Source: Methylobacter sp. (GTDB lineage: Bacteria; Pseudomonadota; Gammaproteobacteria; Methylococcales; Methylomonadaceae). From it: 64,000 nucleotides of DNA. Shown piece by piece: positions 16,271-54,711 of this stretch. A program made the position numbers and the translations under genes. The DNA lies in the NCBI GenBank assembly GCA_004299305.1, contig SCPZ01000100.1:1-64000 (forward strand), in the 5' to 3' direction. The notes beneath the pieces were generated by a model, which ran no database searches, had not been told where the DNA came from, and was given only the letters and a program-made list of their open reading frames with translations. The stretch's first letter is position 1; the number at the start of each line of letters is the position of its first letter.

Positions 16271-18244
16271 ATGAATTCATTGCGCTTAAGTTCAGAAAGA
16301 TTCTTGCTTTTTGTGTCCAAGCAAGCTAAACAAAGTAAATGGCATTTGCTCGCAACGGGCGTTCTTGTTACGGTTTCGCCCTTATCGGTTGCCAAAGAGG
16401 CAACAGCAATAACATTATCACCGATGACTATTGTCAGCGTACCGCAACAATTAGACGAAATCAGTGAAGCTTATTCCAGTCAAAATAGCCAACTTTATAA
16501 TGAGACAAAGTTAGGCCTTGCTCATGAGCAAACGATTGACGAGGTGTTGACTGGTGAGCGCGGCATTGCTATCACTAAACCCGGCACACAAGGCACCGGG
16601 CGGATTTACCTGCGTGGTGTCGGCGGACGCGGATTAATGATGTTAGATGGAATACCTCTTCTTGATTCGGTACCGAATGCGATGAACTTGAATGCCGTCA
16701 TTCCCGATGGCTTATCGGAAATGGAAGTGACGCGCGGTTTTGCGCCTGTATCAAGACCTTTTGCGGCATTAGGCGGTGCAATTCGGATGACGTCGCGTAA
16801 CGCCACGGATAATAGCGCGGATTTACGCGTCGAAGGCGGTACTTATGGTTTTCTAAAGGAAACCTTGCGTAACAATTTTGCCTCTGAACATGCTCGATTA
16901 GCGATTACCACGAATCGCTCAGAAGCGTTTGATGGCGCCTATCAAGCCCAACAAGACAATGGGAATTCAGAGCGTGACCCGTTTCATAGTACGCAAGTGA
17001 TGATGAAAGCAGGCGTTGATATAAGCAAGGATATTATCTGGGAAGCTTCAATGCTGTATCGCCATTCCCATAATAATACCGATATACCTGTCGTTCGAGG
17101 CGGCATCATTCAACAAGCCGATGATAACAATGCGTTTCTTAACGATGAAGGTTGGCTGGCGCAAAATACGCTGAAAGCTAAAATCAGCGAAAATTGGATC
17201 ACGCGCTTGCAATTAGGCTATAGCAAAAATGCGTTGATAGTATCGCAACCGCTTGTCTCACCGAGCTTAAAAACAGATTTTTACCTGGCGCGTTGGGAAA
17301 ATGATCAACGGCTTTGGCAGGATAACGATGATACGTTTCATATCGTCTGGGGCGCGGAAGAACGTTATGAAAGCGGCAGCGCACCTATCGTAGATCGAGG
17401 CCCCCCGCCTAAAGCGACCGGAGTGACGGTTTCCACGCAACGTCATCAGCAAGCCGGTTTTTTAGATAACCGTTTTGCTTACGGCATTTTTAGCGGCGAT
17501 GTCGGCGTGCGTTATGAGGGTTATGAACGCTACAATAATCAAGTATTGCTGCATCTCGGAACGGCATGGCAATTATTGCCGAGGTTAAAATTGACCAGCA
17601 ATGCGGGTAATGGTTTTCGTATTCCAAGTTATTCCGAATTGTTATTTCCAATGACTGGCGATTTGAATTTAAAACCCGAACGTAATATCGGGGGGGATTT
17701 GGGGATTGAATGGCAAGCGTTATCCGCCGTCAAATTGAATGCAACAGGGTTTTACACGCGCTATACCGATTTGATAGCCTTATCGTATAACGTAAAACCG
17801 CCTTGTGGCAGTGTTTGTTTATCGAATATTGCCAACGCCGTTATCGCGGGCATGGAAACCGGCAGTGACATTACTATTAACAAACAATGGCGCGGCGGCG
17901 TTGCTTATACCTATACAGATACGCAAAATTTATTGAATAATCGGGATATACCGTTTCGACCCCGGCATATTTCGAGAGTCTGGGGGGAATGGCGTTCAGC
18001 CGATTTGCCTCTGACTTTATGGACGGAAGGCGTTTATCAAAGTCAGTCTAAAAACGATATGGCCAATACATCGAACATTAATGACAGCTTCCGCATCAAT
18101 ATTCATGCGAATTATCAAATGACACCGAAACTTGATTTATATGTGCGCGGTGAAAATCTAACCAATAATACAACGCCCGCTATGTTCTCGTTTAACCAGG
18201 CAGGGGCGACGGTTTATGGTGGGATGTTGTTGAAGTTGTGGTGA
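16271..18244 (+). CDS. TonB-dependent outer-membrane receptor
   Basis: Outer-membrane beta-barrel that imports a ligand with energy from TonB-ExbBD. The 657 residues start with a long signal region (about 1-41), then a TonB-box-like LSPMTIVSVP near 48-58, a plug domain (about 60-180, with GRIYLRGVGGRGLMMLDGIP and later RGFAPVSRPFAALGGAIRM) and a barrel ending in the aromatic residue of MLLKLW, as the insertion machinery requires. The block DLYVRGENLTNNTTPAMFSF near the C-terminus is typical. AAAAGGA lies about 9 bases before the ATG. A tonB-exbB-exbD operon starts 1.4 kb downstream. The ligand cannot be read from sequence; copper chelators, siderophores and cobalamin are all possible. Confidence 0.93.
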   Translation: MNSLRLSSERFLLFVSKQAKQSKWHLLATGVLVTVSPLSVAKEATAITLSPMTIVSVPQQLDEISEAYSSQNSQLYNETKLGLAHEQTIDEVLTGERGIAITKPGTQGTGRIYLRGVGGRGLMMLDGIPLLDSVPNAMNLNAVIPDGLSEMEVTRGFAPVSRPFAALGGAIRMTSRNATDNSADLRVEGGTYGFLKETLRNNFASEHARLAITTNRSEAFDGAYQAQQDNGNSERDPFHSTQVMMKAGVDISKDIIWEASMLYRHSHNNTDIPVVRGGIIQQADDNNAFLNDEGWLAQNTLKAKISENWITRLQLGYSKNALIVSQPLVSPSLKTDFYLARWENDQRLWQDNDDTFHIVWGAEERYESGSAPIVDRGPPPKATGVTVSTQRHQQAGFLDNRFAYGIFSGDVGVRYEGYERYNNQVLLHLGTAWQLLPRLKLTSNAGNGFRIPSYSELLFPMTGDLNLKPERNIGGDLGIEWQALSAVKLNATGFYTRYTDLIALSYNVKPPCGSVCLSNIANAVIAGMETGSDITINKQWRGGVAYTYTDTQNLLNNRDIPFRPRHISRVWGEWRSADLPLTLWTEGVYQSQSKNDMANTSNINDSFRINIHANYQMTPKLDLYVRGENLTNNTTPAMFSFNQAGATVYGGMLLKLW

Positions 18245-18319
18245 TGTGTCGCAATCGAATTTCCACGCTTGAAACTTGGGAATTAGCGGGACGGCTATTC
18301 ATGTTTGTTAATGATATGA

Positions 18320-18526
18320 GCAAAAAAAAGCCGCTGGTCAGGCGGCTTTAATTATTTCTAAAACTCAAAACTCAAGTATTTACACATCAATAAGATCTTC
18401 ATTTAAAACCAGAACGCTTTTATGAGGAGGCAGTGGCTAATCCTATTAATGTGTGATCTATAGTAAATAAGGCTGTTATATTTAACAAGCAATATTATTA
18501 GATAATCTCATCTGTTTTACAGATAT
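18320..18526 (-). repeat. Direct repeat unit 1
   Basis: This 207-bp unit recurs at 18690-18896 with a fixed offset of 370 bases, no insertions or deletions, and about a dozen substitutions (roughly 94 percent identity by my hand count). Read on the minus strand it holds three small AT-rich palindromes, a promoter-like TATAGAT, a larger stem and a terminator. Changes cluster in the AT-rich upstream part, while the putative transcribed part is nearly invariant. Confidence 0.9.
18322..18450 (-). ncRNA. Candidate small RNA 1 (tandem copy)
   Basis: On the minus strand a -10-like TATAGAT (plus positions 18456-18462) is followed by ACACATTAATA, which can pair with TATTGATGTGT about 50 bases on, through one G-U pair, enclosing a loop with the unpaired C-rich TGCCTCCTC. 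The element ends in a factor-independent terminator: AAAGCCGC, a short loop, GCGGCTTT and then a run of T (18322-18350). The predicted RNA is about 130 nt. The C-rich loop resembles anti-Shine-Dalgarno motifs of regulatory small RNAs. The -35 is weak (TTGTTA at 20-base spacing). A structure search of RNA family models would be decisive. Confidence 0.5.
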
Positions 18527-18573
18527 GAAAAACAACCTCTTATCGTTACGATAGCCGATAAATTAAAAAATAC

Positions 18574-18669
18574 GGATAGCTGTCTAGCATAAGTATTGCG
18601 CTTCTATCAAATCATCGTGCAGTTATTATGCTTTTGACAGTATCACAATCTCACGCTAGACAGCTATCC
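18574..18669. repeat. Perfect 15-bp inverted repeat with 66-base loop
   Basis: Arm GGATAGCTGTCTAGC at 18574-18588 is the exact reverse complement of 18655-18669. It lies between the two direct repeats. On the minus strand the second arm is followed by GTATTTTTT, so it could be a large-loop terminator or the ends of a very small inserted element. Confidence 0.75.
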
Positions 18670-18689
18670 ATACTTTGCTAATTAGATAT

Positions 18690-18896
18690 GCAAAAAAAAG
18701 CCGCTGGTCAGGCGGCTTTGATTATTTCTAAAACTCAAAACTCAGGCATTTACACATCAATAAGATCTTCATTTAAAACCAGAACGCTTTTATGAGGAGG
18801 CAGTGGCTAGACCTATTAATGTGTGATCTATAGTAAATAAGGCTGTTATATATAACAAACAGTATTATTAGATAATACTATCTGTTTTACAGATAC
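18690..18896 (-). repeat. Direct repeat unit 2
   Basis: Second copy of the 207-bp unit (see 18320-18526). Here the AT-rich palindromes are more regular: AGTATTATCTAATAATACT and TGTTATATATAACA are both exact, whereas in unit 1 they carry mismatches. The upstream side directly abuts a GC-rich inverted repeat at 18897-18962. Confidence 0.9.
18692..18820 (-). ncRNA. Candidate small RNA 2 (tandem copy)
   Basis: Same architecture as candidate 1: TATAGAT at the expected place, a stem formed by ACACATTAATA and TATTGATGTGT, the C-rich loop CTGCCTCCTC, and a terminator hairpin with a T run at 18692-18720. Only about five bases differ from copy 1 inside the predicted transcript, none of them in the paired arms of the large stem or the terminator. 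That conservation of paired elements supports an RNA, but two copies are too few for covariation. Confidence 0.5.
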
Positions 18897-18962
18897 GTGC
18901 CGTGCGCGCCTTTTCGCGGTGTGGATATATCTATATTTTTGCTATCTTGGCGCGCACGGCAC
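18897..18962. repeat. Perfect 14-bp GC-rich inverted repeat
   Basis: GTGCCGTGCGCGCC (18897-18910) is the exact reverse complement of 18949-18962, with a 38-base AT-rich loop. The arms are far more GC-rich than their surroundings, and the element touches the end of direct repeat unit 2. It could be a protein-binding palindrome pair, a transcript hairpin or a small mobile element end. Confidence 0.75.
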
Positions 18963-19384
18963 GCCCTATTCGACTTATACCATCAAACATGTGATTTGAC
19001 GGGGTTACAAAAGATCCTGTAGATAGCCCAAATCTGCGGTCATTTAAGGCTAAATATCGCGTATGAGAACAAGGCAACACGGTTTATTTAATTTTTTTTA
19101 TCGTGGAGATGAGGATTTCTTGCGCCTGAAACGTCTTATAGTAGAAGCTCAAAATTTGTTGTTTCTCCGATGAGAAAGTGGTCATTGAGAGTTTTGTGCT
19201 TTGTTGTCTTCCTCATTAATTGCTCAGGTATGACGAAATTTATTCCAAGGATGGTTTTTTTTAACGTATTCATGATGAAGGCTGCTCCGTTTAGTCCAGG
19301 TGAGGACTTATGCCGCTTATTTTGTCTTTATCACCAAGATTAAAGACTGACGCAAAAATAAACTAACGAAAAAAGGAAGGAGAC

Positions 19385-25932: not shown

Positions 25933-26036
25933 TACTTTTCCAGTTTGTAACTCTGTAGATGCTAATTTTAATAATGGGCCTCGGCAATTGCTCCTGCATT
26001 GCTCTACCTCCTGCATCCATGCAGTCGACGGATGAC

Positions 26037-41844: not shown

Positions 41845-42227
41845 GGTTGTCAGGCCGTTTCACGCTGGTAAACCATCGGAACGGTTAAGCTTGGCAATTT
41901 GTCAGGCCTTAAGCATAAGTATCTACTTTTACTGTCCAAAGCCAGCTTTGGACTCCAGAAAAGTGTGCTATAGACGTTCAGATAAATAATTTCCAATTAC
42001 CGTACAAGACAAGCTTGATTTTAAAGGTCTTTAAATTGTTAAGCTTGGAAATTTAATTCCTGAAAATCTATATAGGAGTTCAAAGCTGGCTTTGAACATG
42101 ACAGAAGCCAGCATTAGCATAGGGAGAGTAGTTACGAAAAGTCACTTAGGAACGGGAATTAAATAACTCATACATTTGCACAAAGGGCGACCAGCCAGTC
42201 GCCTCTACGGCTTATCGTGTGTTCACG
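41845..42227. other. Gap with two CAAAGCCAGCTTTG-family repeats
   Basis: 383 bases between the ROCO gene and the convergent GGDEF/EAL gene. Repeat cores at 41933-41956 and 42075-42098 lie 120 bases apart in opposite flank orientation. No terminator with a T run was identified, and no small gene. Confidence 0.6.
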
Positions 42228-46943: not shown

Positions 46944-47330
46944 TGTTTATGCTTTAGTTGCTTTTTATCGCGTAGGAGTGCTGATTTTTACCATGAAGGA
47001 CTTGAAGATATTGTTGTATTGACTTCATGTGCGATCTTGAGACAGTTCATAAAACACTCAATTCTTTTCCCTTCATGGTAATAAAAACGTAACTACTCAC
47101 TCCGGGGCGTCACAAAATATATGTAAAATTCAAAGCCAGCTTTGAACTCCGGCAGCGAAATTTATTGGAGTCCAAAGCTGGCTTTGGGCGCTTTCAAGTT
47201 TTTAACAGGGGCTGAGTAGTTACATAAAAAACAAGTTATAAACAGTGTACTGCATCAGCATCCTCGCGTGGTGTTTGTCGGAAACCGGTTCTCGCTATCG
47301 CTCGAACCGGCTTATTCCGGCCTACATGGC
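46944..47330. other. Gap with repeat and hairpin downstream of the multicopper oxidase
   Basis: 387 bases containing the GGDEF/EAL promoter side, paired short words around ATTTTTACCATGAAGGACTT and CCTTCATGGTAATAAAAACG (46986-47090), the CAAAGCCAGCTTTG repeat at 47128-47188, and a small stem CCGGTTC/GAACCGG (47285-47311) just after the multicopper oxidase stop. Confidence 0.6.
47128..47188. repeat. Interspersed repeat, CAAAGCCAGCTTTG family (full copy)
   Basis: TTCAAAGCCAGCTTTGAACTCC followed after 17 bases by TGGAGTCCAAAGCTGGCTTT, the same arrangement as 1904-1964. Similarity extends into flanks on both sides (GTCACAAAATA upstream, TTTCAAGTTTTTAACAGGGG downstream), so the element is at least 100 bases. 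Confidence 0.8.
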
Positions 47331-54416: not shown

Positions 54417-54711
54417 CTTGAAAACGCTTTAGGCAATTGCCAAGAATAAATATACCCAAATGGCACAGGATTTTTGTTCGTCTGCAACGACTGCATGGAT
54501 GCAGGAGGTAGAGCACCAACAGTAGGCGCTTTAGGCGACGCATGGAGCAGTTGCCGAGGCGTCAAAATGGGCGCATAGTGAGCTATGCAACCATTTTTAC
54601 AACGCAGCAGACGGACAAAAAGACCAGTCAGGTGGGTATATTTTTCGCAGGAAATCGCCTTAGGCTTAAATTTTTGGTAACTGCTGCATGGAGCAATGGC
54701 CGAGGCGACAC

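Follow-up and report, generated by a model that had tools for sequence, protein, structure and literature searches.

Sibling small RNAs (sRNAs) encoded in tandem are a recurrent theme, according to the available part of PMC4211561. The closest known systems are the sibling pairs of Neisseria, in which NgncR_162/163 of N. gonorrhoeae are grouped with NmsRA/NmsRB of Neisseria meningitidis. As described in the available part of PMC5362039, NmsRA and NmsRB are tandem intergenic siblings with their own promoters, with stem-loops and with predicted unpaired anti-Shine-Dalgarno (anti-SD) motifs, and in all of this they resemble the pair reported here; unlike it, they are 70% identical, contain two UC-rich regions and are experimentally supported. 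That part of the report mentions no long hairpin partner (PMC5362039), and the sequence relation between the two pairs was compared via Rfam only. By analogy, and as far as that account goes, NmsRA/NmsRB, which act through their anti-SD motifs, are the nearest functional parallel, through a likeness of probable working and not of Rfam membership.

PrrF1/PrrF2 of Pseudomonas aeruginosa are likewise tandem copies, 95% identical to each other, and PrrH is tied to their tandem arrangement (PMC4211561, available part); read-through of the spacer in the present pair would likewise give a longer RNA. The prrF genes were found via a Fur site, whereas the present pair has no Fur box. OmrA/OmrB and AbcR1/AbcR2 are also tandem siblings with related sequences (same part of PMC4211561), but the 64,000-nt stretch of Methylobacter sp. 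DNA analyzed here (the window) has no match to any family of Rfam 15 at the gathering threshold. A permissive Rfam search of the gap that holds the pair gave 16 sub-threshold matches, none of them credible, the best with 28.6 bits where 60 are needed. This agrees with the original prediction, made from the letters of the window, in which no described family was recognized. Among the matches listed from open-licence literature, at the level of titles and the start of abstracts, there was no described sRNA family of gammaproteobacterial methanotrophs.

Our reading, to which we give a probability of about 60%, is that the window carries two tandem minus-strand sibling sRNA genes whose predicted RNAs of ~133 nt come from a duplicated unit and would act in trans at Shine-Dalgarno regions. 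What was found at the locus is two homologous intergenic candidate RNA genes, each with a terminator and with a promoter-like site that matches 8 of 12 consensus positions and is below the scan threshold in the window.

Anatomy of the duplicated unit

The features of the locus are as follows.

16271-18244: TonB-dependent receptor gene (Pfam barrel and plug), flanking the gap
18286-18313, minus strand: decayed beginning, as it appears by eye from the alignment, of the hairpin element after copy A
18322-18349, minus strand: terminator hairpin and T run of copy A (terminator scan)
18322-18454, minus strand: candidate sRNA, copy A, 133 nt, with its start placed from the -10 box and its end from the T run
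18358-18402, minus strand: 14-codon ORF of copy A, start and stop conserved
18460-18488, minus strand: promoter-like site of copy A, TTGTTA-17-TACTAT, under the promoter-scan threshold
18509-18525, minus strand: palindrome TATCTGTAAAACAGATG, operator-like, its centre lying 63 bases ahead of the predicted start of copy A
18558-18682, minus strand: long hairpin element that follows copy B, with strand-biased G-U pairs
18692-18719, minus strand: terminator hairpin and T run of copy B (terminator scan)
18692-18824, minus strand: candidate sRNA, copy B, 133 nt, with its ends placed as for copy A
18728-18772, minus strand: 14-codon ORF of copy B, start and stop conserved
18830-18858, minus strand: promoter-like site of copy B, TTGTTA-17-TACTAT, under the promoter-scan threshold
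18879-18895, minus strand: palindrome TATCTGTAAAACAGATA, operator-like, its centre lying 63 bases ahead of the predicted start of copy B
From 19385: 88-aa gene without a Pfam match, the other flank of the gap
From 19672: gene with a TonB C-terminal domain, after the 88-aa gene

The direct repeat covers positions 18304-18525 and 18674-18895, with 222 nt per copy and 93% identity. Copies A and B start 370 bases apart and differ by 16 substitutions and no indels. The original prediction had given two 207-bp units with about a dozen substitutions; the repeat, its 370-base spacing and the lack of indels stand, and the extent has been revised, the 207 bp being the inner part of the 222-nt repeat. 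The predicted gap of ~1.1 kb without a protein gene is also there, with 1,140 bases (18245-19384) and no ORF of at least 80 aa.

Read 5' to 3' on the minus strand, both copies have the same order: palindrome, A+T-rich stretch, TTGTTA-17-TACTAT, stem-loop, linker, and terminator. The first base of the stem-loop is the sixth after the -10 box, and for this reason the 5' ends of the RNAs are placed at the stem start (18454 and 18824). The 17-bp palindrome is TATCTGTAAAACAGAT(A/G) in both copies. Its core, ATCTGTNNAACAGAT, has no exact match in the 4.49-Mb genome apart from these two; allowing one mismatch gives 9 matches, spread over 5 places, compared with 4 for a reversed control. The arms of the ~15-bp stem (ACACATTAATA/TATTGATGTGT) are present in both copies, and the C-rich loop TGCCTCCTC, with CUGCCUCCUCAUAAA, is identical in the two. 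The apical loop contains CUGCCUCCUCAUAAAAGCG and is followed by the 3' arm, a U-rich linker (CTTGAGTTTTGAGTTTTAGAAAT), and a terminator formed in both copies by a G+C hairpin and then 8 T. The stem, C-rich loop, and T-run terminator predicted for the minus strand were therefore all seen in each copy. Of the predicted TATAGAT promoter, what remains is a weak promoter-like site at that place; the box itself is re-read as TTGTTA-17-TACTAT, which overlaps TATAGAT.

The re-read site agrees with 8 of 12 positions of the promoter consensus and falls below the scan threshold in the window. The promoter scan of this region of the window reported a single site, a different one within the long hairpin, against 4.7 in shuffled sequences. 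The terminator scan found both minus-strand terminators, together with T-poorer ones on the plus strand at the same places (4 in total vs. 0.8 in shuffles). Folding gave z = -2.8 for copy A (2 of 200 shuffles as good) and z = -2.3 for copy B (3 of 200), better than shuffled sequences to a degree that is suggestive and not strong. Fold energies in the window copies were -33 on the minus strand and -29 on the plus strand, and in the homologue described below -33.0 and -33.3; G-U and A-C pairs were counted at 3:3, 2:1, and 2:3 in the three sequences. The pairing gives no evidence on the strand; the strand assignment of the sRNA rests on promoter and terminator.

The substitutions between copies A and B are unevenly spread, with 0/28 in the terminator, 0/15 in the 3' arm, 2/15 in the 5' arm, 0/22 in the loop, and 3/32 in the linker. 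The transcribed part as predicted has 5 in 134 positions vs. 11 in 90 in the flanks (Fisher p = 0.03). This bears out the claim that substitutions spare the stem arms and terminator, as the two changes in the 5' arm lie outside the 11-nt arm that had been proposed.

Other short repeats occur in the window. Positions 18896-18963, adjoining unit B, form a perfect 15-bp G+C-rich inverted repeat that has 19 matches in the genome at E ≤ 0.1, itself included, some of them as inverted pairs, and because of these matches it is classed here as a REP-like element. Three inverted repeats (1907-1962, 41937-42094, and 47131-47186) have the common arm CAAAGCCAGCTT and apparently belong to another short palindromic repeat family.

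One homologue and a narrow distribution

A BLAST search of 61 relatives and 23 genomes of the genus gave, besides copies A and B, one convincing match, in genome G001, with 77-78% identity over 186-206 bases (E 1.5e-39). A degenerate pattern run over GTDB contigs returned three stretches, of which the covariance model confirmed only one, the homologue in JAPLRU010000089.1, apparently a Methylobacter MAG; the other two (L068 and L069) had no match. Some match at E ≤ 1 was present in 43 of the 61 relatives, the best beyond the window genome and G001 covering 26 bases of the terminator (E 5.9e-5). Full-length hits of the sRNA covariance model came from 2 of the 237 family genomes and from 2 of the 311 genomes of the order, which are overlapping sets, with scores of 171.6 and 166.6 bits in the window genome, 142.4 in G001, and 34.2 in the next one, G087. 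At E ≤ 1, 59 of the 237 family genomes were matched, and at E ≤ 0.001, 3 of the 311 order genomes; searches over more than 40 genomes ran with stricter filters and may miss diverged members. Of the weaker matches, seven alignments were inspected, and these rest mainly on the terminator. Patterns run over IMG/VR returned five stretches, none confirmed at the pattern site, and further pattern searches gave 0 and 0; plasmids and phages had no match to the unit. The distribution of the unit is very narrow. The search for relatives of the predicted RNAs thus yielded one homologue with the promoter spacing, the stem, part of the C-rich loop, the linker, and the terminator, and no wider presence among the 311 genomes of the order.

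Compared with copy A, the homologue keeps 15/16 positions of the palindrome, 6/6 of the -35 box, 4/6 of the -10 box, 13/15 of the 5' arm, 12/15 of the 3' arm, 26/32 of the linker, 24/28 of the terminator, and 14/22 of the apical loop, which is the least conserved transcribed segment. Its loop nevertheless keeps CCUCAUAAA and its anti-SD character (CUACUACCUCAU). The promoter of the homologue, TTGTTA-17-TATGAT, has the same spacing, is nearer to the consensus (9/12), and was found by the promoter scan. The divergence of the transcribed part was 28/134 vs. 25/90 in the flanks for copy A against the homologue (p = 0.26), and 31/134 vs. 25/90 for copy B (p = 0.44).

In the three sequences, 93.9% of the cells of the stem alignment are paired, and 1 of 28 pairs is compensated (U-A to C-G), a level reached by 173 of 500 shuffles. 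Three pairs change on one side and five are unpaired in one sequence each, in an alignment in which the homologue lacks its first five bases. Compensatory change in the stems, which the original prediction had proposed to look for, is thus at shuffle level, and the three sequences do not prove the predicted structure of the sRNA stem. The idea of two regulatory RNAs of ~130 nt agrees with the anatomy and with the conservation in one homologue; its compensatory support from the stem is weak.

A long hairpin downstream of the candidate sRNA

The element at 18558-18682 is a near-perfect hairpin of 125 nt, with -57.6 kcal/mol on the minus strand (z = -10.7) and -36.5 on the plus strand (z = -5.6). 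The window genome has a second copy (contig C118), with -56.3 vs. -30.4 on opposite strands. This copy (L025, 1501-1625) has no sRNA and lies between a gene for a YDG-domain protein and a convergent sulfotransferase gene. The single copy in G001, which is likewise downstream of the sRNA, has -34.2 vs. -31.0 (z = -2.4 and -2.7), so that its energies do not clearly favor either strand. Among the 237 family genomes, these two alone gave convincing copies. The hairpin model had a third match at E ≤ 0.05 among the 237 genomes, in G132 (34.9 bits), which by alignment is an unrelated G+C-rich palindrome. A pattern of the hairpin arm with two mismatches gave 28 matches in the genome vs. 26 for the reversed control.

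On the sRNA strand, nearly every non-Watson-Crick pair of the hairpin is G-U: the ratios of G-U to A-C pairs, counted without strand preference, are 7:0, 12:0, and 8:1 in the three copies. Four of 50 pairs are compensated (26 of 500 shuffles reach this), and the covariation score is reached by 7 of 500. The G-U strand bias suggests a second structured RNA, and the hairpin is likely to be under selection as RNA; we keep to "likely" because the two window-genome copies have a common origin and a mutation bias between the strands could contribute.

PrrH arises by read-through. A tentative extension of our reading, to which we give clearly less weight than to the sRNA pair itself, is that the unit is a module of two RNAs, an anti-SD sRNA and a downstream hairpin of ~50 bp selected as RNA on the same strand. 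Read-through of copy B would then produce a PrrH-like composite (sRNA B, hairpin, sRNA A), the hairpin may serve as a spacer cleaved by RNase III or as a regulator of its own, and the module would move between sites in Methylobacter-type bacteria.

Genomic place and competing readings

In G001, the unit has an ORF of 189 aa on one side and one of 125 aa on the other, neither of them matched in Pfam, and an exonuclease gene nearby. A relative of this exonuclease, 94% identical, occurs in the window genome; at 1e-40, relatives are present in 3 of 23 genus genomes. In the window genome, two blocks flanking this region (91% and 84%) are collinear with G001, with no match to the unit between them; the counterpart regions that lack the unit are not alike in length or content. 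The neighborhoods of the unit in G001 and in the window genome are thus different, so that gene order does not tie it to TonB, and it has moved, been lost, or been transferred.

TonB matches at 1e-30 were found in 16 of the 23 genus genomes. We compared eight tonB loci of the genus outside the window genome (69-79% identity, that of G001 among them): by tblastn, the 88-aa gene was found in all eight and this receptor in none, and the search of the 3.0-3.8 kb ahead of the 88-aa gene gave no match to the receptor and none to the full unit. The only match of the unit in these loci was one of 22 bases, in L115, at the REP-like repeat. Ahead of the 88-aa and tonB genes (19084-19384) is a conserved stretch, TGAGGATTTCTTGC..CTGAAACGTCTTATAG, present in 7 of the 8 loci and four times in one of them (genome G008, locus L108), which presumably resembles an ECF-sigma (FecI-like) promoter. 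Repeats of the CAGGAGGTAGAGC type at 25979-26027 (49 bases) and 54486-54515 (30 bases) are 92-97% identical to stretches in the tonB locus of G001.

Pairing was calculated against 53 crude gene starts of the window. The loop reached a mean of -12.9 kcal/mol vs. -12.3 for shuffled loops, with -9.3 at the receptor (rank 41), -11.1 at the 88-aa gene (rank 37), and -13.4 at tonB (rank 21); the anti-SD motif expected in the loop is present, and its pairing with start sites is hardly above that of shuffled loops. The linker gave -13.0 kcal/mol at the receptor (rank 3/53), -10.6 at the 88-aa gene (rank 14), and -7.6 at tonB (rank 37). The value at the receptor, from one of several tests and uncorrected, was reached by 23 of 500 shuffled linkers and weakly favors a link to the receptor. 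Control of the adjacent TonB receptor or tonB operon, as once suggested for the pair, is mostly not supported: gene order, Fur box, and loop pairing go against it, and the linker pairing remains in its favor.

That the RNA serves the neighboring receptor, as a convergent terminator, by antisense read-through or by linker pairing at the receptor start, is very improbable in our view. Copy A ends 77 bases from the receptor stop codon, the terminator scan picks up its terminator on the plus strand as well, and the linker ranks high at the receptor start; against this stand the homologue, which is not beside a TonB receptor, the eight tonB loci, and the low rank of the loop. Still less credible is an iron-responsive pair of the PrrF/RyhB type. 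The tandem arrangement and the TonB neighbors would suit it, but these neighbors are not conserved, and the best Fur-box match in each of the three promoter regions is 11/19 to the 19-bp consensus, a level reached by 53-65% of 1000 shuffles.

A transcript that is a tiny mRNA or dual-function RNA for a 14-aa peptide (MKILLMCKYLSFEF), such as a leader peptide or a type I toxin of very small size, is improbable, though less so than these two. No other ORF of at least 8 codons keeps its place, start, and stop in the three copies; its start codon is within an unpaired internal loop, and against the homologue it has 5 synonymous and 3 non-synonymous codons in copy A and 4 and 3 in copy B. For copy A, simulation in this one frame gave P = 0.0035, uncorrected for the frames looked at. 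However, the 14 bases before the ATG hold no purine-rich Shine-Dalgarno site, and three of the synonymous sites are in a stem arm, where structure also constrains them; an attenuator would have no gene to control, since copy A is followed by a gene on the opposite strand. With no clear ribosome-binding site, and with its overlap with the structured arm, the ORF is kept as a rival. Somewhat more weight, though still little, goes to a small non-autonomous mobile or repeat element whose end structures would be the palindrome and the long hairpin, with terminator and promoter as passengers. This would account for a palindrome at one end and a hairpin at the other, for the different gene neighborhoods in the two genomes, for the hairpin copy without sRNA elsewhere in the window genome, and for the collinear counterpart of the G001 exonuclease region that lacks the unit. 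Yet instead of the many similar copies of a transposable element or MITE there are three of the sRNA and three of the hairpin among 237 family genomes (two each in the window genome and one each in G001). Moreover, no target-site duplication was noticed by eye, plasmids and phages had 0 matches and IMG/VR none confirmed, the -10 box changes yet stays promoter-like, and the G-U bias of the hairpin is unexpected for a neutral DNA palindrome.

The reading as a pair of sibling sRNAs is favored by a homologue that keeps the promoter spacing, a promoter-like -10 box (TACTAT to TATGAT), the terminator, the stem, CCUCAUAAA, and the linker, as well as by the slower divergence of the transcribed part between A and B, the fold z-scores, the gap free of protein ORFs of at least 80 aa, the presence of an Hfq gene (E 6.8e-30) in the window genome, and the Neisseria parallel. 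It is weakened by stem covariation at shuffle level, flank-like divergence from the homologue, an apical loop less conserved than any other transcribed segment, strand-neutral pairing, an 8/12 promoter, fewer promoter-like sites than in shuffles, the conserved 14-codon ORF, shuffle-like loop pairing, and the narrow distribution.

The sequence anatomy and its conservation in one other species are established, and the following steps are deduced from them. A unit with operator-like palindrome, promoter, sRNA, terminator, and long hairpin would have been duplicated into tandem genes that are 93% identical. Transcription of each gene would give an RNA of ~133 nt, its 5' end closed in the stem and its apical loop exposing CUGCCUCCUCAUAAA. 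The U-rich linker and the U tail of the terminator could hold Hfq. The loop, perhaps together with the conserved linker, would pair in trans with Shine-Dalgarno regions of its targets and so block translation, as other sibling sRNAs do. A candidate anti-SD sRNA that is duplicated, restricted to one lineage, and preceded by a conserved operator-like site would be a concrete, testable regulator in these bacteria, and the strand-biased hairpin may be a second RNA to explain.
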